Shown here: one piece after another, positions 1 to 19,335 of the stretch
How the letters are laid out: every line of letters begins with the position of its first letter
Numbering within the stretch: the first letter of the stretch is position 1
Source: a virus
DNA length: 32,299 nt
Strand: one strand, 5' to 3'
Virus record (IMG/VR): IMGVR_UViG_3300025594_000032
Coordinates: 1-32,299 of that record
Translations under genes and position numbers: made by a program
The notes under the pieces: model-generated
What the model saw: only the letters and a program-made list of their open reading frames with translations
What the model was told of the DNA's origin: nothing
Database searches by the model: none

Positions 1-113
1 TATAAGTGCGTGTTATGTTACTTTGTGTTGCATACCGTTGTATATATAAATCGGGCTAAACCTTTGATTTTAAAAGTAATTCAATTAAATCAAAGACTTA
101 GCGTTTTGCGACT
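1..113. other. Probable host flank, downstream of a tRNA gene
   Basis: I see no gene here. The phage seems to start at the tRNA-like fragment that follows, so this stretch is read as host DNA lying downstream of the tRNA used for integration. Positions 56-70 and 87-101 form a 15-bp stem on the minus strand. Its two imperfect positions are G-U pairs on that strand but A-C mismatches on the plus strand, which suggests the RNA is made from the minus strand, as expected for a tRNA trailer. Frame 1 of the plus strand is open up to a stop at 169-171, but it has no start in view and I do not call it. Confidence 0.45.
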
Positions 114-129
114 TGGTGCTCAGAGCGGG
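114..129 (-). other. Candidate attachment core: tRNA 3'-end fragment
   Basis: On the minus strand these 16 bases read CCCGCTCTGAGCACCA. That is what the last bases of a tRNA gene look like: T-stem 3' arm CCCGC, acceptor 3' arm TCTGAGC, discriminator A, then CCA. The bases on the phage side (higher coordinates) do not continue into a T-loop, so this is only the fragment left at the distal end of a prophage inserted in a tRNA gene. The predicted tRNA has a 5' acceptor arm GCTCAGA, would lie on the minus strand to the right of the window beyond the integrase, and might be tRNA-Phe; the isotype is a guess. No second copy of the core was seen inside the window. Confidence 0.55.
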
Positions 130-196
130 CAACGGTATAACCAATGGAATCATCGGGTTAAAGGTGGGTAGGCGTAATTATTTGCGCCAAATATCA

Positions 197-234
197 AAAT
201 AGTGCTTGCAATGATTAAGCAAAACGCTTAATAT
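197..234 (+). promoter_or_regulatory. Promoter with a palindromic operator for the left-end operon
   Basis: The -35 is TTGCAA (206-211) and the -10 is TAATAT (229-234), with a 17-bp spacer. A perfect inverted repeat, ATTAAGC-N5-GCTTAAT (214-232), fills the spacer, so a bound dimer would block polymerase. The 13 bases at 197-209 are identical to bases upstream of the cro-like gene. The palindrome differs from the repressor operators near 27.5 and 28.1 kb, so another regulator is likely. Transcription would start near 241, about 30 bases before the first ATG. Confidence 0.6.
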
Positions 235-270
235 GTATTTATTGAATCAACCAGCGCAGAGAACGACACA

Positions 271-435
271 ATGAAAAACAACCAACTAATTATCCTTACA
301 GAAGAAAACGTAACAGCAGAACTTGTTGACCTAGCTCTTAACTCTACAAAGGGCGTTCATTGGGATAGCTCAAGCTCAGTTGTTAGCAAGATGGTTGCAG
401 AAGGAATGGACAGAATCTTAAAGAAGCTAAGATGA
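271..435 (+). CDS. Small protein of unknown function (54 aa)
   Basis: First gene of the small rightward operon at the left end. It begins with MKNNQLIILTEEN and ends in a basic tail, MDRILKKLR. The middle (VTAELVDLALNS, then SSSVVSKMVAEGMDRIL) looks like two short helices, and a small DNA-binding protein is possible, but no family is recognised. The ribosome site is weak (AGAGAA, about 8 bases before the ATG). Its stop overlaps the next start as ATGA, so the two are probably translated together. It lies behind a promoter with its own operator and is therefore likely to be regulated. Confidence 0.6.
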   Translation: MKNNQLIILTEENVTAELVDLALNSTKGVHWDSSSSVVSKMVAEGMDRILKKLR

Positions 436-575
436 GCAAGTTAACAAAAAGCCTCGGCATATCAGGAAATCATTTCTTGGTGTGGCGGGGCGGTTCGATT
501 ATAGCGGTATTTGTGAGTGAGGCTGATTGCGATGAATACATCAATATGGCACATAAGGCTGAGGAAATAACATGA
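432..575 (+). CDS. Small protein of unknown function (47 aa)
   Basis: Second gene of the left-end operon, joined on both sides by ATGA overlaps (start at 432 inside the previous stop, stop at 573-575 over the next start at 572). The product begins with MSKLTKSLGISG, has a short hydrophobic stretch (GGSIIAVFV) and an acidic end. It resembles one beta-strand pair followed by a helix. I do not recognise a family. The unbroken overlaps are the main evidence that it is a real gene. Confidence 0.5.
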   Translation: MSKLTKSLGISGNHFLVWRGGSIIAVFVSEADCDEYINMAHKAEEIT

Positions 576-739
576 CCCTACCCGAATACATCAATCAATA
601 TTACAACTCTAAGGCAGAATTTGCGAAGGCTCAAGGCGTTAAAGTGCCTCAAGTATATCAGTGGATAGCGAAGGGCTTTATCGTGGAAGGTGGCGTATTG
701 TACTCGCCTAGAAGGGAGCTTGTGGAGGTGGTGAAGTGA
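572..739 (+). CDS. Small helix-turn-helix protein (55 aa)
   Basis: The segment SKAEFAKAQGVKVPQVYQWIAKG (about residues 13-35) fits a helix-turn-helix: a helix ending FAKAQGV, a turn, then a recognition helix PQVYQWIAKG. It is followed by a short strand (GGVLYSPRREL), a layout seen in very small Cro-like phage repressors. It overlaps the preceding stop by ATGA. It is a candidate for the regulator that binds the palindrome in its own promoter at 214-232. That link is inference from position only. Confidence 0.55.
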   Translation: MTLPEYINQYYNSKAEFAKAQGVKVPQVYQWIAKGFIVEGGVLYSPRRELVEVVK

Positions 740-789
740 GTAAATCTGCCGCGCCATGTTCAATTTGCAAGGGTGTTCGATATTATTGA
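736..789 (+). CDS. Possible zinc-binding micropeptide (17 aa)
   Basis: A GTG start inside the stop of the HTH gene (GTGA overlap) opens a 17-residue frame containing CSICKG, a CxxC pair typical of one half of a zinc ribbon. It ends at the convergent junction with the metallophosphoesterase gene. It may be a micropeptide, or the N-terminal remnant of a longer zinc-ribbon gene cut short when the two arms of the genome were joined. Its length makes chance a real possibility. Confidence 0.25.
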   Translation: MSKSAAPCSICKGVRYY

Positions 790-806
790 ACGAGTTTAAA
801 ATTGAA
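758..806. repeat. Nested inverted repeats at the convergent gene junction
   Basis: GTTCAATTT (758-766) and AAATTGAAC (798-806) form a perfect 9-bp inverted repeat. Inside it, GTTC (775-778) and GAAC (788-791) form a second, extendable hairpin. The structure sits exactly where the rightward left-end operon and the end of the leftward operon meet. It may stop transcription from both sides, though neither side has a long T run. Confidence 0.4.
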
Positions 807-1799
807 CTAAGCCGCCCTTAAGTGTCTAGCCGCTAGGCGTTTAAGCCAAGTGGATCGCTCGTAAATGTCGGGATATTTTTTCTGCATGAATAGGCTAACC
901 GGCATACCTTCGTATTTCCGGCAAAGGTAATCGAAGCTCACCTCCATTAAATCATAATCGCCTTCAAAAACCTCATGTTTAATTATGATCCCACGCCGAT
1001 GACCGTTGCCCTGATAGCCTTTATATTCTTCGTCATGCAAATATCCAGAGCCATGAATTAAGCCCCTAATTATGCGCCCATTGTTTAATTCTCTAAGCCC
1101 TGTTTGATAGGTTTGTTGATGCCCCATTGTAAAACTAAAACCTATATTCTTGAGCTTGGTTAAAATCGACTCGCCGCCGTATGGTCTACCGCTCATAGGG
1201 TTGTAAAAATAATGAGCATAGTGAACACCGTCAATCTCGACAGGCTTTAAAAAGTCGTGAACCGTCCAGCCTAAATCCGCATAATTGAGATTATTAATAG
1301 ACAGAAATCCGTCTAGTTTTGCGTCGCATTCTGTTGCTATGTTAATGCGGTTTTCGTGATTACCAAGCGTGAAGTGTAGCTCTGGTGAGTAAGCGTCCGT
1401 GATAGGCTTTGTGAGTAGCCGCATCGCCTTGTTTGCCGCATCTAGGTCATTGATAACCCTGCGCCCCTCGGATGCCTTTTTGCCCCTGTCATAAGAGCTT
1501 AGGCTTTCCATGTCGGCATGATCGCCTATGTGTACTATTACGTCTGGTCTAATCTCAGCTAGATAATGCCCGATCCATTCTAGGTGATCCGTCGGTGTAT
1601 CTGGTGTGACTTGCGTGTCTGGTATCATTGCGTGAACCCTACCAACGCCTGACGACTTAACAACGCCTGAACCAGCCCAACTGCACGATAAGCATTTAAA
1701 ACGCTGTGAAGCCCCTGTGAGCGTCTTACGCCTGCCTTTTTTGATTAGATCGAAGCTCTTACACTCTGGACATACTACGTTTTCACCTTGAAATATCAT
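807..1799 (-). CDS. Metallophosphoesterase with N-terminal zinc ribbon (330 aa)
   Basis: Residues 1-42 form a zinc ribbon with cysteine pairs CPEC (10-13) and CLSC (36-39). From about residue 55 the protein has calcineurin-like phosphoesterase motifs in order: PDTQV (60-64; the usual D-x-H is D-x-Q), GDHAD (92-96), GNHE (146-149) and GHQQ in the C-terminal half. Such enzymes use two metal ions to hydrolyse phosphoesters or phosphodiesters; the substrate cannot be read from the sequence. Related phage proteins are often annotated as metallophosphatases. The GGAG upstream of the ATG at 1799 supports that start, which lies 17 bases inside the preceding gene. It is the last gene of the long leftward transcription unit, outside the virion and lysis modules, so it is an accessory function. 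Confidence 0.75.
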   Translation of the reverse strand: MIFQGENVVCPECKSFDLIKKGRRKTLTGASQRFKCLSCSWAGSGVVKSSGVGRVHAMIPDTQVTPDTPTDHLEWIGHYLAEIRPDVIVHIGDHADMESLSSYDRGKKASEGRRVINDLDAANKAMRLLTKPITDAYSPELHFTLGNHENRINIATECDAKLDGFLSINNLNYADLGWTVHDFLKPVEIDGVHYAHYFYNPMSGRPYGGESILTKLKNIGFSFTMGHQQTYQTGLRELNNGRIIRGLIHGSGYLHDEEYKGYQGNGHRRGIIIKHEVFEGDYDLMEVSFDYLCRKYEGMPVSLFMQKKYPDIYERSTWLKRLAARHLRAA

Positions 1800-2028
1800 T
1801 ATCTAACTCCGCAACCTTTAGCAGTCTGATAATCGCGCTTATTCTGTGCGTTGTATTATCTTCTGAGTTATCGTTATTTATTAACGACTGGTTTAAGTGT
1901 CCTAGTGCTTTTCTTAATTCTTCGTGATGTGGTTTGTATGTCAGCCCCTCGCCGTATTGGTCAGAATTAGCCGCAAGTGCGGATAAAACCTGTTTAGCCG
2001 CGTTCGGGAATAATTCGTCTAAGGTCAT
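1783..2028 (-). CDS. Small helical protein, possibly DUF5664/MazG-like (81 aa)
   Basis: I prefer the ATG at 2028, which overlaps the preceding stop as ATGA, over the in-frame GTG at 2040. The protein (MTLDELFPNAAKQ onward) is all-helical by eye. The run SDQYGEGLTY, then HHEELRKALGHLNQSL, an acidic stretch DNSEDN and a final helix ISAIIRLLKVAEL resembles the short dATP/dGTP diphosphohydrolase-type (DUF5664) proteins of phages. The resemblance is from memory of the family pattern and is weak. It lies between a nucleoside-hydrolase-like gene and a metallophosphoesterase, so a role in nucleotide turnover is possible. Confidence 0.5.
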   Translation of the reverse strand: MTLDELFPNAAKQVLSALAANSDQYGEGLTYKPHHEELRKALGHLNQSLINNDNSEDNTTHRISAIIRLLKVAELDNDISR

Positions 2029-3401
2029 GCCGTAACCCACTGAATATTAGTGCGCTCGTTCGCTTGGCCCCGAACATCCCATTGCGGACTCCTGGTGTTA
2101 GTGCTTGCGATTAAACCAACTGGGTCGCCTTGCTGAATCCAATTGAGAAACTGCCAGCCCTTTGGCCTTCTTGGCTCGCCTATTACGCTGTACTCAAACA
2201 TAAACACATACCATTGCTTAGTTTCACGGTCATAGCTAACAATGCCGTGAGTACCATCAATTTTACGCCCTGCCTGGTAAGTCTTACCCGCCCACGTTCC
2301 CGACTTACTGTGGCGTATGGTGTGGCTGCTAATTCCTATTGATGCGCTCTGAATTGTGGAGGTCTTTTTATATCTGAATGGGTTACGAGTGCCGCCGTAT
2401 ACAATGCAAGTAGACTGGTTGAATGTATTACGGTTAATCGGTGTTCTGTCTAACGGTGGTGACTGTGGAGGCGTAGATTGCACCAAAGTCTCTACAGCGC
2501 CTAGAGCAACACGATCCTTGCAAATATCCATGCCGTTCTGGATGCCGTTGAATATCCGCGCTATGTCTTTCTCGAAACCTAAGTCTTTGGCTACACAAAG
2601 AACGTCGGCTATTCGCAAGACTCCAGTGTTGTCTTTTATTCCAGCGTTTAACTCCTGGTTGCGCTTTAGAATTTCAGGGGTATTTGCCATATCCCACGCC
2701 TTCAAATCACGATTGCGGTTTATAAAAGTGTGCGTGTCTTGGAATGGTGGCGGTAGGTTGCTACGCTTGATTAACTCATAGTATTCAGTCACCGCGCCCG
2801 ACCTGTCCTGCAATCGATCTAAAACGTACTTAGCAGAAACATAGTTAATCTCTTCGTTCCAAGTATGCTCGAGCAATCGAGGCAATCTGATGTTGTGGAT
2901 ATGTACGCTATCATCCTTGAAGGCTCTAGCCACATCACCCGCAGGCGAACCGAGATAGATCTTAAATATGCCCTTCTTGCTATGCTCGACAATCGCATCG
3001 CTTAACTCAGACTTTGCGCCTAAGTATGTTGGTGCGCCTTCGAGTACTGGCACATTTAAACATAGCTCTTTAACTGCGTTAATGGTGGGCTGCTTATTAA
3101 CGCCATGCTCACCACATGACACACCTATAAATGCTGGTTTAGTGCCTGTCTCGGATATTAGAAGATATAATTGCGCCTGAACGTCCTGTGCCCCATTAGT
3201 CTCACGCCCTGCCGCCACCTCTGGCGTACATTCATCAATGATGCAATAGTTGCCCACTGGCAAATCTGCTATGGCTGGAGTCGGTGTAGGTGTCTCGCGT
3301 TGGTTGAACTTCTTACGCTCTTTGCGGTCTTTGCTTGCCTTAACAGCCGCGCCGATTAAAAGAACTAATATAATCCCAATGACTACTTCCAAATTTCCCA
3401 T
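2025..3401 (-). CDS. Membrane-anchored nucleoside-hydrolase-like protein (458 aa)
   Basis: One transmembrane helix (residues 4-20, VVIGIILVLLIGAAV) is followed by a basic stretch (KASKDRKERKK) and a Thr/Pro linker (TPTPTP), so the N-terminus is anchored and probably N-out. The body follows the order of an inosine-uridine-type nucleoside hydrolase: a first strand NYCIIDE, a degenerate metal site (AQDVQAQLYLL), FIGVSCGEHG, NAVKELCLNVPVLEGAP, then AIVEH with the strand IFKIYLGSPAGDVARAF. The usual DxDxGxDD signature is broken (IIDECTPE), so metal binding and activity are uncertain. The last 140 or so residues belong to no domain I know. It is coupled to the o-spanin gene (19-base overlap), late-expressed, and may act on host nucleosides at lysis or be only a fold relative. 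Confidence 0.5.
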   Translation of the reverse strand: MGNLEVVIGIILVLLIGAAVKASKDRKERKKFNQRETPTPTPAIADLPVGNYCIIDECTPEVAAGRETNGAQDVQAQLYLLISETGTKPAFIGVSCGEHGVNKQPTINAVKELCLNVPVLEGAPTYLGAKSELSDAIVEHSKKGIFKIYLGSPAGDVARAFKDDSVHIHNIRLPRLLEHTWNEEINYVSAKYVLDRLQDRSGAVTEYYELIKRSNLPPPFQDTHTFINRNRDLKAWDMANTPEILKRNQELNAGIKDNTGVLRIADVLCVAKDLGFEKDIARIFNGIQNGMDICKDRVALGAVETLVQSTPPQSPPLDRTPINRNTFNQSTCIVYGGTRNPFRYKKTSTIQSASIGISSHTIRHSKSGTWAGKTYQAGRKIDGTHGIVSYDRETKQWYVFMFEYSVIGEPRRPKGWQFLNWIQQGDPVGLIASTNTRSPQWDVRGQANERTNIQWVTA

Positions 3402-3658
3402 AATCGTTTATTAACCTTTTTTTCGTTTTTCTGGATGCGCTCGAAATCTAAATAGAGTAATTCGCGGTCGGCTATACACTGCGTCAATGCGATGGCTAGG
3501 TCTGTGGTGGTGGGATTCTGGTTTATCAGAATAGGTTGATATGGTTTGGTGGGTTGTAGGTCTTTAGTCAGCTTTGCGCTGCATCCCGTTAATGCGCTCA
3601 ACCCAATCATTAAGATTAGCAGGGTCAATACTTTTAATCGTTTCGGTAACATTGTCAT
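3383..3658 (-). CDS. Outer-membrane spanin lipoprotein, Rz1-like (91 aa)
   Basis: Signal peptide of a lipoprotein: basic MTMLPKRLKV, a hydrophobic core, and lipobox LTGC with the acylated cysteine at residue 26. The start lies inside the inner-spanin gene in another reading frame (95 bases of overlap), the embedded Rz/Rz1 arrangement of lambda-like phages. A short Pro-containing stretch (QPTKPYQPI) follows the lipobox. Spanins fuse inner and outer membranes at the last step of lysis. At 91 residues it is longer than lambda Rz1 (60), with an extra charged helix at the C-terminus. Identification rests on lipobox plus position. Confidence 0.75.
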   Translation of the reverse strand: MTMLPKRLKVLTLLILMIGLSALTGCSAKLTKDLQPTKPYQPILINQNPTTTDLAIALTQCIADRELLYLDFERIQKNEKKVNKRLWEIWK

Positions 3659-3848
3659 TACTCCGGTTTAATTGCGTGAGCTTGTCCTGAGCCGCCGCCC
3701 TGTAAATCTCACACTGTCGCGCTAATTCTTGCCGCTCACGGTAGCCTTGAAAGTCGTTGTATAGGTATAAAGATACCCCAACGAATAACAGCATGGCTAT
3801 TGGGTTAATCTTGCCGCCTGTCGTGAATAGGCTTATTAGCATTTGCAT
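3564..3848 (-). CDS. Inner-membrane spanin, Rz-like (94 aa)
   Basis: A transmembrane segment (about residues 14-32, INPIAMLLFVGVSLYLY) is followed by a polar helix, YRERQELARQCEIYRAAAQDKL, expected to lie in the periplasm as a coiled coil. The downstream o-spanin begins inside this gene in another frame. It starts at 3848 in a TAATG overlap with the small membrane protein upstream. The protein is shorter than lambda Rz (153), but the pair has the correct topology: an inner-membrane anchor plus an outer-membrane lipoprotein. Confidence 0.7.
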   Translation of the reverse strand: MQMLISLFTTGGKINPIAMLLFVGVSLYLYNDFQGYRERQELARQCEIYRAAAQDKLTQLNRSNDNVTETIKSIDPANLNDWVERINGMQRKAD

Positions 3849-4030
3849 TACTTAGCCACCCTCAAAACAAAAAGATGCGCTAGAGCTAAAGCCTGTACGA
3901 AGTATTGAAGTTTACCCACTGGAATTATCAGCACCGATGCAACCAGCAAAGCGATTGTGAGGTAGGTCTTAATGCCGCTTAACACTTGCGCGTCATACTT
4001 GTATAACAGTCTTCTAATTGATGCGGTCAT
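3848..4030 (-). CDS. Small membrane protein in the lysis cassette (60 aa)
   Basis: Hydrophobic protein with a basic N-terminus (MTASIRRLLYKYD), one clear transmembrane helix (TYLTIALLVASVLIIPVG) and a probable second (FVQALALAHLFVLRV). It overlaps the endolysin gene by 17 bases and the i-spanin gene by one base (TAATG). Position between endolysin and spanins, plus two membrane segments, suggests a second holin or an antiholin. No family is recognised. Confidence 0.6.
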   Translation of the reverse strand: MTASIRRLLYKYDAQVLSGIKTYLTIALLVASVLIIPVGKLQYFVQALALAHLFVLRVAK

Positions 4031-4439
4031 AGTGTGTAGCTCCGTTTATCTTCTTGTGCGCCTTGAGTATCTTGCCGCGCTCTATGTCTAAGTGTACCCA
4101 CCGCCCGAACTCGTCTATTAGTGTGCGGTATGGGATAACGTGCTTTACCGCTTCAATGACATCGTGTGGAGTCATGCCGTCAACGTGAAAATCTACAGCT
4201 AAACCCTCCATGTGCTTAGACGTTGAGCTACCTCTAACGGCTGTATTAAGCGCCTCACATCGAAAACCTGAGCTAACCATCACTGGCTTGTTGATAGTCG
4301 CCCTTACAGCCTCTAGCACCGTACAAACCCGCTTTAAATTGATTATTTGCTCACTGTTTGGGCTGTTGTCAATTCCATGACGTTCTGCCGTTTGGCTTAT
4401 TGTTAATTCCTGAAGGGTAAAGTTTGGAGTAAGGTTCAT
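4014..4439 (-). CDS. Endolysin, M15 peptidase family (141 aa)
   Basis: Single-domain D-Ala-D-Ala carboxypeptidase-like (Peptidase_M15_3) enzyme that would cut peptidoglycan peptides. The zinc ligands fit the family: H76 and D83 in SKHMEGLAVDF, and H116 in WVHLDI. SSGFRCEALN (56-65) is the other conserved block. There is no signal peptide, so export needs a holin, consistent with the membrane-protein genes around it. It starts in an ATGA overlap with the 41-residue membrane peptide gene. Length is normal for phage M15 endolysins. Confidence 0.85.
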   Translation of the reverse strand: MNLTPNFTLQELTISQTAERHGIDNSPNSEQIINLKRVCTVLEAVRATINKPVMVSSGFRCEALNTAVRGSSTSKHMEGLAVDFHVDGMTPHDVIEAVKHVIPYRTLIDEFGRWVHLDIERGKILKAHKKINGATHYDRIN

Positions 4440-4561
4440 AACCGTTCCTCGTAAAGAACGTCAACAACAACAAAAGCGCAATATGTCGCTAACATCAGCA
4501 CACCCAAAAAAAAGACCACCGCTAAAAGCAAGTGGCCGAGAAGGTGCAGGGCTTGGGTCAT
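4436..4561 (-). CDS. Short membrane peptide in the lysis cassette (41 aa)
   Basis: A gene of 42 codons lies between holin and endolysin. It starts in a TAATG overlap with the holin stop and ends in an ATGA overlap with the endolysin start. The product (MTQALHLLGHLLLAVVFFLG, then VLMLATYCAFVVVDVLYEERL) is one long hydrophobic helix with an acidic tail. The exact fit at both junctions argues that it is a real gene and keeps the lysis genes translationally linked. A pinholin-like, antiholin or holin-partner role is inference. Confidence 0.6.
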   Translation of the reverse strand: MTQALHLLGHLLLAVVFFLGVLMLATYCAFVVVDVLYEERL

Positions 4562-4767
4562 TATCCGTCCCTCGATTCCATCTCGAAGCGTTTGCGTTCC
4601 AGTTTAACCAAGTTATACTTATGCCAGAAATTCACTCCAGCACCAAAAAGCGCCAGAACAAAACCGCCGATTGCTAGTATTTCCGTTAAGGTTATCCCGC
4701 CCACTACCCCAATGGTTGCGCCCACCCAGCTTAAATTCTGAGACTGTTCTAAAATCTGATCTTTCAT
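4561..4767 (-). CDS. Holin (68 aa)
   Basis: Small protein with two probable transmembrane helices (about residues 12-29 and 31-46: WVGATIGVVGGITLTEI and LAIGGFVLALFGAGVNFW) and a charged C-terminal tail KLERKRFEMESRD. Size, topology and tail are those of class II phage holins such as the HP1 type. An AGGG lies 7 bases before the ATG, within a stretch that is otherwise all T. It is the first gene of the leftward lysis cassette, 35 bases downstream of the end of the late-operon terminator at 4802-4822. Confidence 0.75.
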   Translation of the reverse strand: MKDQILEQSQNLSWVGATIGVVGGITLTEILAIGGFVLALFGAGVNFWHKYNLVKLERKRFEMESRDG

Positions 4768-4801
4768 AAAAAAACCCTAACATGGGCGGTTATTGAGACA
4801 T

Positions 4802-4822
4802 AAAAAAAGCCGCTAGTGCGGC
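4802..4822 (-). terminator. Rho-independent terminator before the lysis genes
   Basis: On the minus strand a GCCGC-ACTA-GCGGC hairpin (4809-4822) runs into seven Ts (4802-4808). It lies about 245 bases beyond the last ejection gene and just before the holin. Transcription of the lysis genes must pass it, so late antitermination or partial read-through would set lysis-gene levels. Confidence 0.75.
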
Positions 4823-4844
4823 GCGTATGGTGTATTATTGGTAA

Positions 4845-5081
4845 ATGCTTAAAATAAAGCCCTCACACTGGTTTAATTACGTTGGTATTCCTGCAACTAT
4901 TATTGCTTGTATAGCGTTCTTCATTACCGGTAATGAAAGTTACGGAATGATCGGAGCTGGCATTGGTGGTTGGCTTGGTGGTTCATACCTAACGCTAGAA
5001 GCCGTTTATAAGAAAGTGTATGGCAAAAACCCCACTTCAAAAGAAGTCGATGAAGGGTTGGATAAGCTATTCGGCAAGTAA
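4845..5081 (+). CDS. Small membrane protein on the opposite strand, possible moron (78 aa)
   Basis: The only plus-strand gene inside the long leftward unit. It has two transmembrane segments (about residues 11-28, NYVGIPATIIACIAFFITG, and 33-52, YGMIGAGIGGWLGGSYLTL) and a charged C-terminal tail. Its last 15 bases overlap the end of the ejection-protein gene tail to tail. An independent gene against the flow of late transcription is the usual form of a prophage moron, for example a superinfection-exclusion membrane protein; P22 carries such genes in nearby places. The promoter is unclear: TATTAT (4833-4838) is a possible -10 but no good -35 was found. Function is inferred from context only. 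Confidence 0.6.
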   Translation: MLKIKPSHWFNYVGIPATIIACIAFFITGNESYGMIGAGIGGWLGGSYLTLEAVYKKVYGKNPTSKEVDEGLDKLFGK

Positions 5082-6803
5082 TGTTCTCAAGGCTTTAAGC
5101 CTAGTGTCATCGTCTCGCGTCTTAGATAGAGCCTTCATCACCTTTTCACCGAAGAATGTTCTAGGCTCGGATACAGCCCTAGCCGTTTGGCCTACTGCGC
5201 TCTCTGTAACGCCCTGGAGTGACGTTCTAGCCTGTGTAGGCAGTACGCGCTCCATTTCATTAGCAAACACAAGCAACGTGTCTAAATCATCGCCAAACTT
5301 GCCGCCTGTAGCTGTAGCAACCTGATTAAGCCCAGAATAAGCGTCATCAACACGCCCCCCGCTCATGGCATTGCTTGATATCCTTCGCGCCAATGTGCCT
5401 AAGCTCTTGTCGAAGTTATCACTAGCCGCATTGCTAGACTTACCTATTAGTGAATCAACCTCGCTTAAAGCGTTCTTTGTTGTGGCGTAGAGTGTATTAG
5501 CGTCATCATAATCAGGAAATCGACCGTCCAGCATTTCGTCCATGTTATGCCGTAGTCGCTTGATTAGGTTCTCGGCCTGCTTCTCTGCGCCTGTCTTGTT
5601 GCCCGCGCCATAAGTAACATTATTATCTATGTATCGCTTGAGCCTGTGAACATCGTAAGCGTCTGGCGTTTTGGTGTCTGACATTCGCGTAACGACTCGA
5701 TTAAGTATCTTTTGAGCGCCTGCTAATCCTTCAATGTCGGAGTCTTTAAAATCAAGCCTAATCTTTCCGTCCGTTTTCAGCTTTACGCCAATATCATCTA
5801 ATTGCGAAACAAAATCATCTACAAAAGGAGTAACTTCTACGGCCTCACCTTTTAATGATTCTGCCGCCTTATCAATAGCCGTCCCCGCCTTACGGTTTAC
5901 TTGCGTAACGTGCTTATAGCGTTGGGCTATCCGCTCGCCTATAACATTCAAAGGGCGCTCTTTAATGCCCACCTTTGGGTTATTTTTAGCCGCTCGATAA
6001 ATGCCCACCATTTTACGCATTAGTGATTTATCAGTCTTTGATGCGCCCTTAACTACGCTGACCACGCCCTGATCAAATCCTTGATCTATTGCCTCAATAG
6101 CAACTCTGTCCTTAACAACCTTGCCGGACTCATTTAGGGCAAGTTTAGCCACACGAGAATCAGGGTTAGTTTCTAGCAGTCTTTTAAGTTGTGCGTTTTG
6201 CGTTATTTTTTCGCCAATCTTCTGAGCAACCTTGCCGCCCGCATAACCCAAAGCTAAACCAGTTACACCGCCCTTCGCCCCATCAACAACAACCTCGCCT
6301 AATGTCTCACCCTCAGAGAATCCAACGCCAGCCGCAGTACCCACAACACCACTAGCCTTAGCCGCTTGCGCCGCCATGCTGCCGCCCTTCATTATTCCAG
6401 TTTTAGCTAGACCCGCGCCGCCTGTAAGTGCGGCGCCAACCAAGTTAGCGCCTAACGCCACTCCAGGGTTTTCTTCTGCAAATTCTCTGTTAAACTCGCG
6501 TATCTCATCCCTAGCTTGCTTGTATGTCTTATTGCTAAACATAGACACTACAGCCGCTTGCCCTTCATCTGCAAAGCCTAGTGATGCGCCTTGAGCCGCT
6601 TGGCTAAGAATGCCTAGACCATTTGATGGTAAGTCCTCGTACTCATCTTTTGATAGCGCGCTAATACCTTGAGGCTGTACGCCGTAGGGGTTGCCCGCTT
6701 GCTGTGGCGTATTGTGTGGCTGTTCTTGCGGTATTAAATCATCAAAAGCACCAATGCTTGCCGTAGCGTCTGATTTAGGTATTAAATCATCGAAAGCGCC
6801 CAT
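5067..6803 (-). CDS. DNA ejection protein, P22 gp16-like by position (578 aa)
   Basis: Last of three internal virion proteins and in the place of P22 gp16 (609 aa), which enters the host first and helps DNA cross the membrane. The N-terminus has two copies of GAFDDLIP (residues 2-9 and 18-25). A Gly/Ala-rich hydrophobic region (about 110-190: ALGANLVGAALTGGAGLAKTG and following) could insert into membranes. The rest is charged and helical (for example NLIKRLRHNMDEMLDGRFPDYD). The ATG follows directly after the previous gene's stop, with no gap. Assignment is by gene order, size and composition. Confidence 0.7.
   Translation of the reverse strand: MGAFDDLIPKSDATASIGAFDDLIPQEQPHNTPQQAGNPYGVQPQGISALSKDEYEDLPSNGLGILSQAAQGASLGFADEGQAAVVSMFSNKTYKQARDEIREFNREFAEENPGVALGANLVGAALTGGAGLAKTGIMKGGSMAAQAAKASGVVGTAAGVGFSEGETLGEVVVDGAKGGVTGLALGYAGGKVAQKIGEKITQNAQLKRLLETNPDSRVAKLALNESGKVVKDRVAIEAIDQGFDQGVVSVVKGASKTDKSLMRKMVGIYRAAKNNPKVGIKERPLNVIGERIAQRYKHVTQVNRKAGTAIDKAAESLKGEAVEVTPFVDDFVSQLDDIGVKLKTDGKIRLDFKDSDIEGLAGAQKILNRVVTRMSDTKTPDAYDVHRLKRYIDNNVTYGAGNKTGAEKQAENLIKRLRHNMDEMLDGRFPDYDDANTLYATTKNALSEVDSLIGKSSNAASDNFDKSLGTLARRISSNAMSGGRVDDAYSGLNQVATATGGKFGDDLDTLLVFANEMERVLPTQARTSLQGVTESAVGQTARAVSEPRTFFGEKVMKALSKTRDDDTRLKALRTLLAE
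6730..6800 (-). repeat. Two direct repeats encoding GAFDDLIP
   Basis: Two 23-base copies (6730-6752 and 6778-6800) differ at two positions and lie 48 bases apart. They encode the duplicated GAFDDLIP octapeptide at the start of the gp16-like protein. The spacing is a multiple of three, so this is a protein-level repeat, perhaps a peptide docking motif. Confidence 0.7.
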
Positions 6804-8096
6804 TTATTTAACTCCCATCTCTGCTAGTCTAGCCATAACCTGTTCTCTGTCAGCACCCGCCGCTATTGCCGCTTCTGCCTCTGCAATCAATGCCGAATTA
6901 TCTACACCGCCTTCCACCGCTCTATCTATGATTACTTCATCAGGGTCAAAATTACGCTTTTCCGCCAATTGCCTAAATGTTTCAACACGCTTGTTGTAGT
7001 TTTTCTCCGCTCTCTTGTATAGTTTCCCCGCCCTGTTTACAAAATCTTTTCGCTGATTGGTTTCAAGCATTTCGCCGTTTATGACTTTATTGTATCGAGC
7101 AACAATCCCCTGAGGCACAGAGCCGGCATTTTGCGCTGTAGCAAATTCACCCTCTCTGACTGTTGAACCAGGATCTAGCACCTTCATATAGTTAAATATC
7201 AAAGCCATATCCCCAGCAGGGCTGGGATCTTCCGCAGAAGCCAGCACACGGCCATAAGCGTCATTTACAGCCATGAATGGCTTAGTTTCAGCCGCGAACT
7301 CTTTGCGTAGGGATTGCACATCCTTAAAGTCAGCCACACCACCACCTGCTGCTTCCAGTGCATCTTGTTCCTTGTCATACTCGAACTTTTCACGATCTAG
7401 CTGATCTTTTGCACTAATAGCTTCTGGAAGTGAAGCAACATTGCCCGCCATTAAGCCTTGAATCTCTAAGGCTTGTGCGAACTCATCGCCAGTTTTAACT
7501 AAAAGCCCCGCGAGTTTATCCACTGGCTTACCTTCTGCCGCATACTCACGCGCCTGCGTTCTGATGTATTCCTTAGTGCCTTCTTCGCCGAACTTTTGAA
7601 GAACACTAAGACCATTGCTAAAGAACTGTTGAGCCTGCGCCGCATCTTGAGCAAGTGCCGCTTTAGCTTGAGTGTCCGAAGTCTTAAGAACGTCTAAAAC
7701 CATTTTTGCGCTTTCAGGGTCGTGCTTATTCATAAAGCTCAACTTCTTAAGCGAGTCAGGGTCGCCTAACATTCTCTGCAATCGACTGTTCTCATCAATG
7801 TTCTTTTTATTCTGGTCTGCCTGACTTGTCGCCTGCTCTATCTGTTGCTCTTTCTGCAATTCAACTTGAGCAGTTTGAAGCTGTGCTTGCTTTTCTTCTG
7901 TGGTGGGTTCAGCCGCTTCTGGCTCTGCAAGTAGCTCCTCCCGGTATTGATCAACCTTTTTATCGTTGGACTTATCCTTATAATGCTTGCCTATTGTCCC
8001 GATAGCTTGGCCTAACATTTGCCCCATCTCCGCGCCGCCTGATGGTAGAAAAGGGGCGGGTAATTTCGCTATATTTACTGCGCTAGGTGGTCTCAT
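6804..8096 (-). CDS. DNA ejection protein, P22 gp20-like by position (430 aa)
   Basis: Internal virion protein between the gp7-like and gp16-like genes; P22 gp20 is 471 residues. Residues 45-110 are Glu/Gln/Lys-rich and probably coiled coil (EKQAQLQTAQVELQKEQQIE). A central region with KVLDPGSTVREGEFATAQNA resembles a motif common in podovirus ejection proteins, where it occurs with NEQQ-like helices. The C-terminal end is Ala-rich (LIAEAEAAIAAGADREQVM). There is no enzymatic motif. The start overlaps the preceding stop as ATGA. Confidence 0.7.
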   Translation of the reverse strand: MRPPSAVNIAKLPAPFLPSGGAEMGQMLGQAIGTIGKHYKDKSNDKKVDQYREELLAEPEAAEPTTEEKQAQLQTAQVELQKEQQIEQATSQADQNKKNIDENSRLQRMLGDPDSLKKLSFMNKHDPESAKMVLDVLKTSDTQAKAALAQDAAQAQQFFSNGLSVLQKFGEEGTKEYIRTQAREYAAEGKPVDKLAGLLVKTGDEFAQALEIQGLMAGNVASLPEAISAKDQLDREKFEYDKEQDALEAAGGGVADFKDVQSLRKEFAAETKPFMAVNDAYGRVLASAEDPSPAGDMALIFNYMKVLDPGSTVREGEFATAQNAGSVPQGIVARYNKVINGEMLETNQRKDFVNRAGKLYKRAEKNYNKRVETFRQLAEKRNFDPDEVIIDRAVEGGVDNSALIAEAEAAIAAGADREQVMARLAEMGVK

Positions 8097-9190
8097 GCTG
8101 CTTCCCTCATTTCTTCTTTAATCTGTTTGTGTAGATTGCCATAATCAATTACCTTGTAATCCCCAACCATGCCCACGCAATCAGGATATTTGGCTTCGAC
8201 TTCTTGAGCCTTAAACCCTGTCGTCATTTCCGTTCCGACCATGTCTCTAACTGCTGGTTTCCAATCCCATTCGTAAAGCGTTAAACCACCAACCTCACCG
8301 ACTGGCTGCATGTTGTCTTTAAGTCTCTCGTCACTAAAGAAAATATTTGCTGCGGTTGATGCGGCAGACATCAACATTTGATTGTTATTTAGACGGTTTG
8401 CCATAATTGCATTAGCGCTGTTAATCATGCCGCCGCCAATAGCGTTAGCAGAACCCATAATTCCTTGAGCGCCATAGTAGGCCGCATTCATTACGCCTTG
8501 CGCTGCCGCCGTACTTCCCTGATTAATGTAGCTTGCCGACTGTGACGCGCCACTCATCATGGTGTTTGATGCGTTTTGCGCCGTACCTGTCAATATGTTT
8601 GATACGCTGCCCGCATACCCCATATTGATATTTGCTTGCCTTGCTGCCGCCGCTTGACCAACATTGACTTGATTAACTTTGCGTGAGTAGTCCTGACCTT
8701 CAATCGCCATTGCTAATTGTGTGGAGATGTCTGCCGCCTGTTGAGCAGCCGCACCGCTTCGCGTTAGTCCAGATTGACCCAAAGCGCCACTTGCCGCAGC
8801 CTGTCTATCATTTACTAAATCGCTATAAATGTCGGTGTCTGAAATCTTACGCAAACGATCTGCAAAACCCTCAAGCGTCGATGCCTCATTAACATCCTCA
8901 AGAAATCGAGTACCTGTCTCGACATACGGCGAAAGCATTTCTGTAGTCGTATCAAACTGCCGCTTCTGCTCTGCAATGGCTTTCTCTGATGCCTCAAACT
9001 GTAGATTAGCGCCATACTGTGACGCATGCGCAACCATTCCAGCGGCCGCAAATGCGCCATCTGCACCCATCTGAGCAGACCTTAACGCCGCATCCGACTG
9101 CATTTGAGCAATCTGCAAAGATGCGTCAGACTGTAGTTGAGCCGCTTCCGTTTGCGCTTTTGCTTGCGCTTTTGCTCCACTTGAACCCAT
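8093..9190 (-). CDS. DNA ejection protein, P22 gp7-like, with S74-type C-terminus (365 aa)
   Basis: The N-terminal 270 residues are Ala/Gln/Ser-rich with repeated motifs (SDASLQIAQMQSDAALRSAQ) and long helices, as in internal virion proteins. The last 80 residues begin with FFSDERLKDNMQPVG and continue through LYEWDWKP and TGFKAQEVEAKYPDCV. This matches the intramolecular chaperone domain of Peptidase_S74, normally at the end of tailspikes and fibres, where SDERLK holds the Ser-Lys pair for self-cleavage. Its presence on an ejection protein is odd for P22 gp7 (229 aa) but is known in other podovirus proteins annotated as DNA transfer proteins. Whether the protein cleaves itself is unknown. 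Confidence 0.7.
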   Translation of the reverse strand: MGSSGAKAQAKAQTEAAQLQSDASLQIAQMQSDAALRSAQMGADGAFAAAGMVAHASQYGANLQFEASEKAIAEQKRQFDTTTEMLSPYVETGTRFLEDVNEASTLEGFADRLRKISDTDIYSDLVNDRQAAASGALGQSGLTRSGAAAQQAADISTQLAMAIEGQDYSRKVNQVNVGQAAAARQANINMGYAGSVSNILTGTAQNASNTMMSGASQSASYINQGSTAAAQGVMNAAYYGAQGIMGSANAIGGGMINSANAIMANRLNNNQMLMSAASTAANIFFSDERLKDNMQPVGEVGGLTLYEWDWKPAVRDMVGTEMTTGFKAQEVEAKYPDCVGMVGDYKVIDYGNLHKQIKEEMREAA

Positions 9191-9564
9191 TAGAGTACCC
9201 TCATAAATAAATTGCCACTGTCAAATTCTTGTCGTTCCATTCCGGCAGCCCTAGCCATAAAACAAGCCCTGTGATGCCCGCCCTCAATGTATGCATATAC
9301 TTTTTTAAATCCCATCTCTTTAATCTGCTCAAAGTTAGCTAATAAGCCCTGTATAGGCTTCGCTGGTAGGTCTACAATCGCCGTATGTAAATAAACATGA
9401 TCACCGTTAGGCTCGTAAAATATAAGCCCTTCACCGACCTTGTAATAGATAAATGACGGATTGGGAATAAACGCCTTTTTGTCGTTTTGCCCCTGCCATC
9501 TCCATACCTTAGGCTGTGTTAATATTTTTTTTATTCGCCTAAGCGAAAACTCGCGCTCTAGCAT
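9190..9564 (-). CDS. P22 gp14-like protein, DUF2824/GNAT-like (124 aa)
   Basis: Sits between the needle-position gene and the gp7-like gene, the place of gp14 in P22. The protein has the alternating strand-helix layout of a GNAT acetyltransferase fold: KAFIPNPSFIYYKVGEGLIFYEP, YLHTAIVDLPAKP, a helix LANFEQIKEMGFKKVYAYIEG and HHRACFMARAAGMERQEF. The usual acetyl-CoA loop (R/QxxGxG/A) is not obvious. It is described in P22-like phages as a head-assembly factor; its activity is unknown. It shares single-base TAATG-type overlaps with both neighbours. Confidence 0.65.
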   Translation of the reverse strand: MLEREFSLRRIKKILTQPKVWRWQGQNDKKAFIPNPSFIYYKVGEGLIFYEPNGDHVYLHTAIVDLPAKPIQGLLANFEQIKEMGFKKVYAYIEGGHHRACFMARAAGMERQEFDSGNLFMRVL

Positions 9565-10640
9565 TAAAGTTCGCTAACTTGAAAAATCGTCCTATTTCCC
9601 GAAGTTGCTGAGGCAATGCTGCCCGATGTATCTACGTTCTCTACCCACATCTCAAGATAATCAGTGTTTACTAAGCTAACTACCTGATTCAGAGATAATG
9701 TTGTAACTGATGACCCCGCAGCCGTTCTGTAAATCTGACCGACCGCAGAACCATTTTTATACAAGTAGAGTCTGATACGGTCGCCGCTAGTCAGCCCGCC
9801 AAATCTAGCTCTAAGCCTTACGGAATAATACGCCGTTTTTGTCGATGTGAACTTATCTGATGCGAATAGTCCTGATGTATCCCAATCCTCAGTCCACCCG
9901 GTTAGCTTTTTCGGTGTTGCTGCTGTCAGTGACGATGAGCTGGTTAAGCCTGCACTGAATTGAGCCTTTGTAACACCCCCCAGCGCCGCCGCATCAACAT
10001 AAGCCTTTATAGATTGCTGTGTCGCTAATTTTGTTGCGCTGTCAGTGCTAAGAGTATCCTCATCTAAAACAAAACCCATCCCAGTTGTAACGGTATCTGA
10101 TAACATCACCGCGCCAGCCGCATTTACGTTAGTCGCGTCTGTTACGTCTGCGTTATTTTCTACCCCTGTCGCCGTAGAGTACCCCGCCACACTATGATCG
10201 CCCCACCCTTGCGCTGTATCAGCCTTTGCGCCCTGCGCCGCCGTTGCGTAGTCGGTAGCATCAAAAGCCTTAACTTGTGCAAGGTTAGTAACCTCGCTAT
10301 CCATTAACGCGCCTGCGCTCGTTACGTTGGCTGTATCGGTTGCGTCAGCGCCATCCTCTACGTTTAAAAACGCCAAAGTGGTGGTTTTGTTCAAGCCTAA
10401 CGCAATCGTGCCGCTAGTCGTCACTGGCGTGCCAGAATCCACCTCTATTCCATCAGAACCAGATACGGCAACGCTTGTGACTGTACCGCTTGAGCCAGCC
10501 CCTGCTGAATTAGCATCAACCGCTATTAGCAAGTCATCTAAGAACTTGTTCATGGGGTCGGTAAATACGACCTCTTTACCGTCCTTAGTCTTGGCTACAG
10601 TCTCTAAGTAATTAAGGCGCTGGCCTTGAATATCAGACAT
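9564..10640 (-). CDS. Tail needle/fibre protein with C-terminal jelly-roll knob (358 aa)
   Basis: Occupies the place of P22 gp26, the trimeric needle that plugs the tail. The N-terminal third has the SGSDGIEVDSGTPVTTSGTIALGL-type beta repeat of phage fibres. Two copies of a motif VExxADxTDxxNVxxAGAxM follow (about residues 95-115 and 160-180). TKLATQQSIKAYVDA then marks the usual fibre stalk. The C-terminal 130 residues (TGWTEDWDTSGLF through YYSVRLRARFGG, RIRLYLYKNG, DYLEMWVENVD) look like a C1q/TNF-type trimeric jelly roll, similar in idea to the knob on the Sf6 needle. No long coiled coil as in P22 gp26 is seen. It may carry receptor binding as well as plugging. Confidence 0.65.
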   Translation of the reverse strand: MSDIQGQRLNYLETVAKTKDGKEVVFTDPMNKFLDDLLIAVDANSAGAGSSGTVTSVAVSGSDGIEVDSGTPVTTSGTIALGLNKTTTLAFLNVEDGADATDTANVTSAGALMDSEVTNLAQVKAFDATDYATAAQGAKADTAQGWGDHSVAGYSTATGVENNADVTDATNVNAAGAVMLSDTVTTGMGFVLDEDTLSTDSATKLATQQSIKAYVDAAALGGVTKAQFSAGLTSSSSLTAATPKKLTGWTEDWDTSGLFASDKFTSTKTAYYSVRLRARFGGLTSGDRIRLYLYKNGSAVGQIYRTAAGSSVTTLSLNQVVSLVNTDYLEMWVENVDTSGSIASATSGNRTIFQVSEL

Positions 10641-12315
10641 TTGCGTTTAACCCTGTGATCGTAAACGGTATCTCTGCGCTAGTCTCTAACGCTAACTGTA
10701 AGCATCCATTGGTAGGTGTCAACCCGCCTGAGAAGTTGTAGCGTATTCGCTCGGACTCGTCCTTATCGCCATAACTAATAGTCTGCGCTGTTGACCATGT
10801 ACCGATTAATCCAGTCAAAGATAAATACATATTTAAATCGTCTGCTGAGTCGCCTGTAACAGCCGTCATGTAGTCGCCTCTTGCCCTGCGTGAATAGCTA
10901 ACCTCTAGCGAATCAAAAACCGTATCTCTTTGCGCCGCATCGTTTAGCCCTAAGTAAAGGCCACGTGTGATTGATCTTTCTACTGATGCGTTAGTAGAGG
11001 TGTTTATACTTAAGTCTTTAAAGTTTTGCGTGGATAGAGGTTTTGTTTTTTCAAATATGCCTAAAAATGAATCATCATTCCTCATGTTGCCCGCGAATAT
11101 CCATCTGCGGTCAAAGAATGTGGCGAACTGAAACTCAAAAGTAGGATGAAATCCAGCGTCTGAGACGCTGTCGTAGGCTTTGCCCATAGGTCTGCTGTGC
11201 CATTCATCATTATCGGAGTACTCCGCATTTATGTCTGAACTCAAGAACCCCCACTGATAACCGCCGCCGGACTGTTTCGCGTAAAGCGTAAAGTCGTCTG
11301 TAGTAAACGTGTATACGTTCTCGCCGCCAACAGGGAATGATTGCCCCCGCAAAACGCCCACATCGAAAAAAGAAGCCTCTGACGACCCGCCAGTACCAAC
11401 ACCATCACTTAAAGTAGACTGGCCGTTAAGTGTTATTTGGTTGACCATTAAGCTATCAACAACATACGGTGATATTTTATTAATAGAAGACCCGCTCATC
11501 TCATAAAACGAAGCTGCGCCGCCATTCTCACGACCTAAAAACAAAACCTTAGTCGATAACTTAATCATCCCTCCCAGATAACCTATAGGGATAACAGAAT
11601 TTGAGACATTTATAAATGGCTGAGAAGCACCACCAATATTCCTAAACCTTTGTATTGACTCCTCACCAAAAACAAACAAGTCTTCACCTATTACGGCTAA
11701 CGCCCTGTTTTTGTCCGGCCTAGCCTCTGCATCAAAAAAGTACAGCGCCGATACGTTACCAGGGTCATCAACCTCTGACCAAAAAATGCTCTCACCATCC
11801 GCAGTAAGCCAAACATACCGCCCGCCTAAATAGACTACATCCATGCAATCTGGAAGGTCTGCATCGGTAAGTTCTGAAATGTTCTGGCTAGAGTCTATAA
11901 AATATTTTTTAGTGCCTGTAGCAAAAGCAACGCCAGTGTAGCCCTCTGCCCATGCAATATCACCATCCCCAGGAATGGTAAGCCCCCCCGCCAACTGGAA
12001 AAGAAAATAGACCGTATCGTTTGGGGGGTTTAGGTCTGTAGTTGTGGTGTATTGGTATGCCGCATCACCAATAACCGTTAATATTTGGTTGCCTCCATAA
12101 ACCATCAAGCATCTGCATCGGCCAGACAAGTTGTGTATTTTAGTTAAAGTGGGCAGCCCCCCGCCACCGGCTGCTGCGGTATAATCATCAACCAGCAAGC
12201 GCATAGGCTCACGCGAAACCAAAGCGCCCCCCACGTTATACATATTGTGGAGGTATGAAATAGACTCAGGCGTGTCTAAAGAGCCTGAGATCGTATCAGG
12301 TAGGGGTAGCATCAT
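10633..12315 (-). CDS. Tail hub / packaged-DNA stabilisation protein, P22 gp10-like (560 aa)
   Basis: Follows the gp4-like gene as in P22, where gp10 (472 aa) forms the tail hub that receives the needle and spikes. The sequence is rich in beta strands with repeated blade-like segments (RYVWLTADGESIFWSEVDDPG, RALAVIGEDLFVFGEESIQRF, YLGGMIKLSTKVLFLGRENGG). Those are typical for this beta-propeller-like protein family. It starts MMLPLP; either of two adjacent ATGs may be used. It overlaps its neighbours by 8 and 20 bases. It is about 90 residues longer than P22 gp10; the extra length seems to lie in the C-terminal half. Confidence 0.8.
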   Translation of the reverse strand: MMLPLPDTISGSLDTPESISYLHNMYNVGGALVSREPMRLLVDDYTAAAGGGGLPTLTKIHNLSGRCRCLMVYGGNQILTVIGDAAYQYTTTTDLNPPNDTVYFLFQLAGGLTIPGDGDIAWAEGYTGVAFATGTKKYFIDSSQNISELTDADLPDCMDVVYLGGRYVWLTADGESIFWSEVDDPGNVSALYFFDAEARPDKNRALAVIGEDLFVFGEESIQRFRNIGGASQPFINVSNSVIPIGYLGGMIKLSTKVLFLGRENGGAASFYEMSGSSINKISPYVVDSLMVNQITLNGQSTLSDGVGTGGSSEASFFDVGVLRGQSFPVGGENVYTFTTDDFTLYAKQSGGGYQWGFLSSDINAEYSDNDEWHSRPMGKAYDSVSDAGFHPTFEFQFATFFDRRWIFAGNMRNDDSFLGIFEKTKPLSTQNFKDLSINTSTNASVERSITRGLYLGLNDAAQRDTVFDSLEVSYSRRARGDYMTAVTGDSADDLNMYLSLTGLIGTWSTAQTISYGDKDESERIRYNFSGGLTPTNGCLQLALETSAEIPFTITGLNANV

Positions 12316-12775
12316 TTGCTAGTGCCTCGCCGTTGAAAAATGCACCACTAACACGACCGCCGCGAGAACCCTGCCCGCGAGGTAGTGTTTTAGAGGGGAT
12401 TTTGTTAGGAATGTCATGTTGACGATACATCTTGCTCAAAGCCTCTCTGCTGAATGACGCTGGTGGCAGTAATTGCATGTCCTCTGGCTTTGCTCGTGCC
12501 GATGTAGCAAGGTAAGCCGCTACAAGGTTTACAAGGTTAAGCCTAGCAGCTAAAGGCTCGTTAAGCTCGTCTGAGGCAACCGTAGGCGTTGCTATTGTGG
12601 TAGTCGTTCCGCTAACAGTCTCCTCAAGGATAATGCCATTAACTCGCAGCTCCTCAAGAACTGAAATCAACACCTGTAAGCCGTTGGACGTAAGCGTTGC
12701 ATCTGTGCTTAGAATAGACGAACCTCGCCCAATCGAGTCATAAGCGTCCTGTATTATCTCGGAGGCTAACGACAT
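12296..12775 (-). CDS. Head-tail adaptor, P22 gp4-like (159 aa)
   Basis: Matches P22 gp4 (166 aa), the accessory factor that binds the portal and closes the filled head. It begins with a helix ASEIIQDAYDSIGRGSSI, then LQVLISVLEELRVNGI and the gp4-type helix LAARLNLVNLVAAYLATSARAKP. A basic, flexible C-terminus (NKIPSKTLPRGQGSRGGRVSG) follows. Length, order and helix pattern agree with the family. P22 gp4 also has muralytic activity; I cannot see an active site here. Confidence 0.75.
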   Translation of the reverse strand: MSLASEIIQDAYDSIGRGSSILSTDATLTSNGLQVLISVLEELRVNGIILEETVSGTTTTIATPTVASDELNEPLAARLNLVNLVAAYLATSARAKPEDMQLLPPASFSREALSKMYRQHDIPNKIPSKTLPRGQGSRGGRVSGAFFNGEALANDATPT

Positions 12776-12981
12776 TATTTAACCTTTGTGACTTTCTTCG
12801 CCACCTTCTTAGAAACCTTTACAGGCTTCTCAATTATCTTTGCAGGCGCTTCTACTTCTTTGCGCCAATTATCTTTTAGAGCTTTATCTAGCTCATCAAT
12901 ATTTACTACCTTGTACCAAAGCTCACGACCGAACACTTTGCGTGAATGCCGTCTTGGTACGTCTGAATAAACTACTTGCAT
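12775..12981 (-). CDS. Small Lys-rich protein between coat and adaptor genes (68 aa)
   Basis: I take the ATG at 12981, not an in-frame GTG/ATG farther up that would overlap the coat gene and the terminator hairpin. The product begins MQVVYSDVPRRHSRKVFGREL and ends with a strongly basic repeat-like tail (PVKVSKKVAKKVTKVK). The tail suggests nucleic-acid contact. The gene lies directly behind the terminator that follows the coat gene, so its level should be far below that of coat protein. P22 has no counterpart at this point. Function unknown. Confidence 0.55.
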   Translation of the reverse strand: MQVVYSDVPRRHSRKVFGRELWYKVVNIDELDKALKDNWRKEVEAPAKIIEKPVKVSKKVAKKVTKVK

Positions 12982-12995
12982 AATATTTACCCAAT

Positions 12996-13023
12996 AAAAA
13001 AGCCCCCCATTTCTGAGGGGCTT
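12996..13023 (-). terminator. Rho-independent terminator after the coat gene
   Basis: On the minus strand AAGCCCC and GGGGCTT (13017-13023 and 13000-13006) form a 7-bp hairpin with a 10-base loop, running into a T-rich tract (12996-13001). It begins 6 bases after the coat stop. It would make coat mRNA more abundant than the tail genes downstream unless antiterminated. Confidence 0.8.
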
Positions 13024-13028
13024 CTGGT

Positions 13029-14291
13029 TTAAATTGCCGCGCCTTGTGACGGTAGCAAAATGCCGCATCGAAGCGGGTCAACAACATTAGGCTTGCACCA
13101 TGTAGACAAACGATAATTGACTTGACCAGTTAGGGCAGAACCCTGCTTGATAAAGGCAACCTGAATGCCTGACTCTGTTGTGTAAGTGCTTAATACAACA
13201 CCGGCAGAACCATCCAACGCTGACCAGTTAAGGTCTGATACATACAACTTGATCGCGTCCTTAGTGGTGAACACTGTAGGAGTAGAAGCCGCTGTATTAA
13301 TCGGACTAATAACTGCCGCATTTGCAGGCTTTGCAGATACGTTTTGATACGCGCCACTCGCTACAATCGCAGGAGCAATAGTTACCGAAGTAGTGCCGCC
13401 GCCAGAGATAACTCGGAACGTCATAAGCTCTCCAGTATCTTCTTTAGACTGCAAGTTGATACGATTAACGCCAGCGATTGTAAAAGCATCGCCGTTAGTC
13501 AATGAGCCACTTGTGTTAGTCACTACAAGAACTTGTGAGCGAATGTCATCAGAGCTAGGCAATGATAGAGTCGTATCAGAGTTATACCCTTTAGGGTCTA
13601 CGTCTTGGTCTGCACCATTAACCACCACAGTAGTAACCGCATCAGCACCAATCTGCTTCAAAGCATTGGTTTTGAATACGCGGAAATCACCGATAGAAGG
13701 TAATTCACCAGTCGCGTAAGTCATGTGGTCACGACTGTTATCAGTCGCTCGCATACCTAGCTGATTAGCAAGACCTAGCGAAGTGCGAGGAGCCATATAC
13801 ATGAATCGATCAGTGCCGGTAGCACCAACCTCATCAAGCATTGCACCCGCTTTCGCAAAGTGATCGTAGTCAGTTAATGCAGTAGTTTCTGCGCCAACCA
13901 AAGAACCCCAATCAACTACCTTATCCGCAATCTCTTTAGAGATATCAGACTGCAGCTTGCGAACCGCAGCGTCTACGTTATCAGTAACACGACGCGCAAC
14001 TAGCGACTCGTTAACAGATAGCGCGAATGTGCCGTTTTTAATGTCACCCTCAGCAAGTGAGATAGGTACAGAAATGTCTGCAACATCATCAATGCTTGAA
14101 GTAACGTCTAAGCCTGTACTCGTACTAATTTGATTAGAGTAAGGTACACGCATGGTTTGCCCAGCAAGTGCAGAAGCACCTGAATCTGGTTTGAAAATAT
14201 CGGCATTAGTAGCCATGATATTGTTGTTTTCGAACGCCTCACACGCATGTTCCCATGCAATTTGTTCAACACTGGTTAAAGAATTACCCAT
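13029..14291 (-). CDS. Major capsid protein, P22 coat-like (420 aa)
   Basis: Lies between scaffold and gp4-type genes as in P22 and has nearly the same length (P22 gp5, 430 aa). The N-terminal segment TMRVPYSNQISTSTGLDVTSS, the long helix DNVDAAVRKLQSDISKEIADKV and WGSLVG follow the HK97-fold pattern of P22-type coats. So does the block FAKAGAMLDEVGATGTDRFMYM, with its SLGLANQLG continuation. The middle (about 215-310) is beta-rich and may be the telokin-like insertion domain of P22 coat. The ATG at 14291 is preceded by AAGGTGAATT, a reasonable ribosome site. Confidence 0.85.
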   Translation of the reverse strand: MGNSLTSVEQIAWEHACEAFENNNIMATNADIFKPDSGASALAGQTMRVPYSNQISTSTGLDVTSSIDDVADISVPISLAEGDIKNGTFALSVNESLVARRVTDNVDAAVRKLQSDISKEIADKVVDWGSLVGAETTALTDYDHFAKAGAMLDEVGATGTDRFMYMAPRTSLGLANQLGMRATDNSRDHMTYATGELPSIGDFRVFKTNALKQIGADAVTTVVVNGADQDVDPKGYNSDTTLSLPSSDDIRSQVLVVTNTSGSLTNGDAFTIAGVNRINLQSKEDTGELMTFRVISGGGTTSVTIAPAIVASGAYQNVSAKPANAAVISPINTAASTPTVFTTKDAIKLYVSDLNWSALDGSAGVVLSTYTTESGIQVAFIKQGSALTGQVNYRLSTWCKPNVVDPLRCGILLPSQGAAI

Positions 14292-14307
14292 TTAAATTCA
14301 CCTTGAA

Positions 14308-15171: not shown

Positions 15172-15257
15172 TTTTTTCCTCTTGTTTTTGAGTAATCCGC
15201 ATTAGTCTGAATGCGTACAGAGTGAATCCGCGAAGGCTGTCGCGTACAGTGAGTTAT

Positions 15258-18568: not shown

Positions 18569-18911
18569 CCTTGCCGCCTATCTGCAAAACCAAGTCACCC
18601 TCTTGCTTTACGTCTTGCTTGTCGTGCATTCCATGATTAGCCAGAACTAGCTTTGCAATGGTCGCGTTAAAGTCACCCTTGAGGCCGTTGTTTAGCGTTA
18701 CATTCTTCTGCTTTGACTCAATCCGCGCTAACGTGTCCGATAATTGCTCGTAAGCATCGCCCCATAAGTAAATAGTTGATCGACTAACGTCTAAATATTC
18801 AGACAGCCCCTCTACGCTTGGTATCACATCACCGCAGTCTTGATAGCAAAAAAGATATGAGTCAGCCTTAGCCTGCATATCCTTATTGTACTTTGTCGGT
18901 CTACCCGCCAT
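18555..18911 (-). CDS. Terminase small subunit, P22 gp3-like (118 aa)
   Basis: Begins MAGRPTKYNKDMQAKADSYL, continues with GDVIPSVEGLSEYLDVSRSTIYLWG and then FNATIAKLVLANHGMHD. This is the pattern of the GP3_package/terminase small subunit family: a DNA-binding HTH (residues 32-55) followed by an oligomerisation region. It recognises the packaging site and recruits the large subunit. P22 gp3 is 162 residues, so the C-terminal part is shorter. The pac site in P22 lies within gene 3; I cannot identify one here. It starts in a TAATG overlap with the upstream gene. Confidence 0.85.
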   Translation of the reverse strand: MAGRPTKYNKDMQAKADSYLFCYQDCGDVIPSVEGLSEYLDVSRSTIYLWGDAYEQLSDTLARIESKQKNVTLNNGLKGDFNATIAKLVLANHGMHDKQDVKQEGDLVLQIGGKVAKV

Positions 18912-19105: not shown

Positions 19106-19115
19106 AATGTAAATT

Positions 19116-19176
19116 ACCCGCCCAATATCGTAAGTGGTAGCTTTTCCAGCCCCTGATAGGTGATGTTGTGGCGGGT
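19116..19176 (-). promoter_or_regulatory. Long-range inverted repeat in the late leader
   Basis: ACCCGCC (19116-19122) and GGCGGGT (19170-19176) are complementary over 7 bp with a 47-base loop. In the leftward RNA the second arm is the G-rich stretch 11 bases before the first late ATG (19105), the best ribosome-site candidate there. Pairing could therefore limit translation of the first late gene. Confidence 0.35.
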
Positions 19177-19198
19177 TTATTCTGTATCCCGATATGGA

Positions 19199-19235: not shown

Positions 19236-19247
19236 ATTGTGTTCTGT

Positions 19248-19302: not shown

Positions 19303-19335
19303 GCATTATTTACAAATAAATGCAAGTTTTTTTGA

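Follow-up and report, generated by a model that had tools for sequence, protein, structure and literature searches.

A tRNA 3'-end copy beside the integrase gene as the very probable attP core of an uncultured temperate tailed phage

The window analyzed here (32,299 bp) takes up the whole of a virus record in IMG/VR, without flanks on either side. Near its left end, on the minus strand at positions 114-129, lies the 16-mer CCCGCTCTGAGCACCA, which reads as 5 T-stem bases, 7 acceptor bases, a discriminator A and CCA, and which is single-copy in the window even when 3 mismatches are allowed. The opposite end of the record holds an integrase reading frame on the same strand (31637-32299), which is cut by the window end. 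What is retained are the C-terminal 220 of the approximately 315 residues of a tyrosine integrase (phrog_1, 3e-50; PF00589, 5e-26), with the N-terminal 95 residues lying outside the record. The Pfam Phage_integrase domain is present, and R189, H268, R271, H293, and Y302/Y303 are invariant in the alignment. An earlier note on this DNA had placed the integrase at the other end, its N-terminus facing outward, and was correct in this respect.

The same note had read the 16-mer as the 3' end of a tRNA on the minus strand, and this was borne out by a viral contig (L016) whose complete tRNA-Leu(TAA) terminates in exactly these 16 bases, the exact common block being 17 bases long. This tRNA-Leu(UAA) is the only intact tRNA that we found to carry the 16-mer, and ARAGORN detected no tRNA gene in the window itself. 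In addition, partial tRNA-Leu copies that end with the 16-mer occur in three other viral contigs (L002, L009, and L011), where the copied part of the same tRNA-Leu end is longer and extends from the anticodon arm to CCA; these copies are probably the attachment sites of unrelated phages that use the same tRNA. Matches to the 16-mer in unrelated contigs (e.g., L003, L004, and L015) have no tRNA context and were set aside as chance; nor did the viral contigs contain a variant core, with T as its second base, following a tRNA T-loop. That the 16-mer of the window is not itself a chance tRNA-like string follows from its occurrence at the same position in a relative that is otherwise no more than ~70 to 87% identical in its matching DNA.

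Scanning with the integrase identified three contigs (L017, L018, and L019) that bear on how the two ends of the record relate to each other. The first 127 bases of L018 are the reverse complement of window positions 127-1 at 100% identity, i.e., the two sequences show an exact end-to-end overlap. Beyond this overlap, L018 continues through a short leader into ATGGCTACATTCCGC, the start of the integrase, and past the int start it matches window positions 32299-31443 at 89%. Since L018 spans both ends, the two ends of the window are, in the L018 strain, connected via the missing N-terminal 95 residues of the integrase, and the bridge between the ends amounts to 316 bp in that contig. Independently, L017, which is 99.8% identical to window positions 26640-32299, lengthens int by 183 bp beyond 32299. 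The genome would thus be an almost closed circle of ~32.6 kb, of which ~316 bp are absent from the record; the gap is bridged not by sequence of the window itself but by a strain with 89% identity in its int DNA. An element of about 32.5 to 33 kb had been predicted, and the size found here falls within that range.

Judging from the behavior of assemblers, neighboring contigs would overlap by exactly 127 bases if they came from a de Bruijn assembly with k = 127. The record itself is very probably the unintegrated sequence (from a virion, or from a circular or excised form), in which the assembler broke the circle within int. The ends of the record are assembly breaks rather than prophage ends, and hence flanking chromosome is not to be expected.

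We next consider the DNA on either side of the 16-mer. The stretch from 1 to 113, located between the core and the integrase start, is 100% identical to L018:15-127 and runs past position 1 into int, with L018 going on to the int ATG at L018:159. As measured in L018, 145 bp separate the CCA of the core from the int start, and int reads away from the core. The earlier suggestion that the core belongs with the integrase was right. On the other side, the stretch from 130 to 240 leads into small phage open reading frames; it is kept across the core in a 29.9-kb phage contig (L014/L019) and is identical in contig G008. The 29.9-kb contig carries an identical 16-mer beside a related integrase (~71 to 76% protein identity to that of the window), the int start being 190 bp to one side, while the DNA on the other side of its core matches window positions 130-234 and 571-742. 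Across the core, window positions 55-234 are 77% identical to this contig, and the unbroken identity at the core comprises the 16-mer plus the 3 bases before it. Host chromosome was found on neither side of the core in L018 or L014; both sides are phage. As phage DNA flanks the core on both sides in these contigs, the site is an attP and not an attL or attR, with 1-113 as its P' arm and 130-240 as its P arm. We therefore regard positions 114-129 as the core of an intact attP, of the tRNA-3'-end type, of a temperate tailed phage, and give this reading a probability of roughly 95%.

The earlier note had instead placed a boundary between prophage and chromosome here, with the chromosome starting at the left, such that positions 1-113 would be chromosome downstream of the tRNA and 114-129 its displaced 3' end at the distal att site. 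A tRNA 3' end close to one extremity of the record and int at the opposite one are what such a boundary would look like. Nevertheless, positions 1-113 are identical to a phage contig in which they lead straight into int, and the region shows conservation with L014, a contig that has phage DNA to the left and right of the core. The note itself had named phage genes continuing to the left of position 1 as refuting its proposal, and L018, being identical over positions 1-127 and then entering the integrase start, supplies exactly these. We consider a boundary at this site very improbable. Still less credible is the possibility that the 16-mer is what is left of, or a piece of, a tRNA gene encoded by the phage, without a role in integration: some phages do carry tRNA-Leu genes, and the viral contig L016 has a complete one, but the match spans exactly the T-stem to CCA while the rest of the tRNA leaves no trace, the 16-mer lies 145 bp from the integrase start and is unchanged in L014 though its flanks differ, and related integrases have repeats of tRNA 3' ends at the same place.

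The attP core differs at a single base between two samples. Contig G008 (3300009435_000078), which derives from another sample, was compared with window positions 112-3111 and 3032-19882 (19.8 kb) and shows two base differences, at 128 and 14287. Position 128 lies inside the core and is a G in the window and an A at G008 position 17. Given that this position would fall within the segment that attP and attB exchange, the difference might be a trace of natural lysogeny, with phages leaving the chromosome with either the host's base or their own. We regard this as unlikely, and plain mutation explains the difference equally well.

We used the integrase alignment in a genome scan, which returned 80 bacterial loci. 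At many of these loci, a tRNA on the same strand ends ~100 to 200 bp before int, the tRNAs being varied (Thr, Leu, Arg, Val, Met, and Lys, among others). A second copy of the tRNA 3' end was sought in two of the prophages, whose integrases are ~40% identical to that of the window. The Stenotrophomonas prophage (L036), located at a tRNA-Leu(TAA), has an exact 20-base direct repeat of the tRNA 3' end 44.5 kb away, and the Rhodanobacter prophage (L027), located at a tRNA-Leu(GAG), has an exact 17-base direct repeat 41.0 kb away; both repeats extend from the T arm to CCA. The resemblance to the window is one of position and extent: in the two prophages, the tRNA-Leu 3' end and int share a strand and are 153 to 157 bp apart, the tRNA end coming first, as compared with 145 bp in the window phage (in L018), and the window core, at 16 to 17 bases, is similar in extent to their repeats. 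They differ in that L036 and L027 are integrated, measure 41 to 44 kb, and have other tRNA sequences, whereas the window phage is unintegrated and measures ~32.6 kb.

By analogy, we infer that the integrase recombines the core with a host tRNA gene whose 3' end is identical to it. The phage copy would restore the tRNA, which would come to adjoin int, while the host's original tRNA 3' end would be moved away to the prophage's other end. In the orientation of the window, the restored tRNA would then be located on the minus strand beyond the N-terminus of the integrase. The earlier note had expected the intact tRNA on this very side, in agreement with the layout of the related prophages.

Short repeated boxes near the core may represent additional integrase-binding elements. 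Directly before int, two TGCGCCAAA boxes stand 11 bp apart (L018:138-146 and 149-157), and they are also found in L014. A further copy lies on the plus strand of the window at 183-191, in the other arm, where it is inverted relative to the two copies before int and holds the only GCGCCAAA of the window; it is a candidate arm-type box. Perfect 7-mer repeats at 9- to 13-bp spacing, within 45 bp before int, occur at 22 of 51 family loci, 19 of them at exactly 11 bp; shuffled sequences would yield 0.4 such loci, and a control region yielded 3 of 50. The box sequence itself varies by subgroup and includes TGCGCCAAA, TTACGCC, TTCCCCA, and TTGGGAC, among others (L018, L014, and genome loci L025-L067). 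The tandem boxes are putative arm-type sites of the integrase, and those before int may also control int. In addition, the core of the window is flanked by a perfect inverted repeat, ATACCGTTG at 32-40 and CAACGGTAT at 130-138; this pair was dropped as an arm site, as it is not kept in L014.

The tRNA most likely targeted by the phage is tRNA-Leu(UAA). Two observations make it the best candidate: no other tRNA was found to end in the 16-mer, and tRNA-Leu(TAA) is used by a homologous integrase. With respect to the host, the 16-mer was absent from 398 Pseudomonadota genomes drawn evenly, and a longer tRNA pattern was absent from 369 genomes of the class drawn around G004; these samples are thin for a large group and may have missed a proteobacterial host. 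A comparison of the L016 tRNA-Leu with phage and plasmid records gave only 80 to 84% matches, spread over many taxa, and thus no host lead.

The hosts of marine phage contigs have previously been predicted from the combination of an integrase gene and a perfectly matching piece of a tRNA in the phage genome, including by tRNA-Leu matches (PMC3861242). The window phage resembles those phages in having both features in its genome, and differs in the length of the common block, which is 16 to 17 bp vs. the 36- to 46-bp matches quoted in that study; a host tRNA match of that type was not found for the 16-mer among the 398 Pseudomonadota genomes. The attP of the window is an ordinary arrangement, of a kind already in use for assigning hosts to marine phage contigs (PMC3861242). 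With the attachment site of this uncultured temperate phage placed, tRNA genes that match the core can be used to look for its host.

The record as a whole is the nearly complete genome of a tailed, temperate phage. PHROG matches were obtained for a portal, a major head protein, a scaffold, an Hc3 head closure protein, a DNA ejection protein, and Erf, and by this annotation the head genes would be of the P22 type; the likeness to phages that combine P22-type head genes with Erf recombination is one of annotation-level PHROG matches only. A megablast search of window positions 1-25000 against named phage records gave no close nucleotide match. The terminase large subunit (17252-18568) is closest, at 49% identity, to those of the Synechococcus phages Ssp-JY42 and Yong-M4-211 and is otherwise far from named phages, whereas the relatives of the integrase are mostly found in Gamma- and Betaproteobacteria. 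Finally, a DNA methyltransferase gene (phrog_116) is located at 20884-22062, in the same gene block as that of a DnaB-like helicase at 24612-26000.
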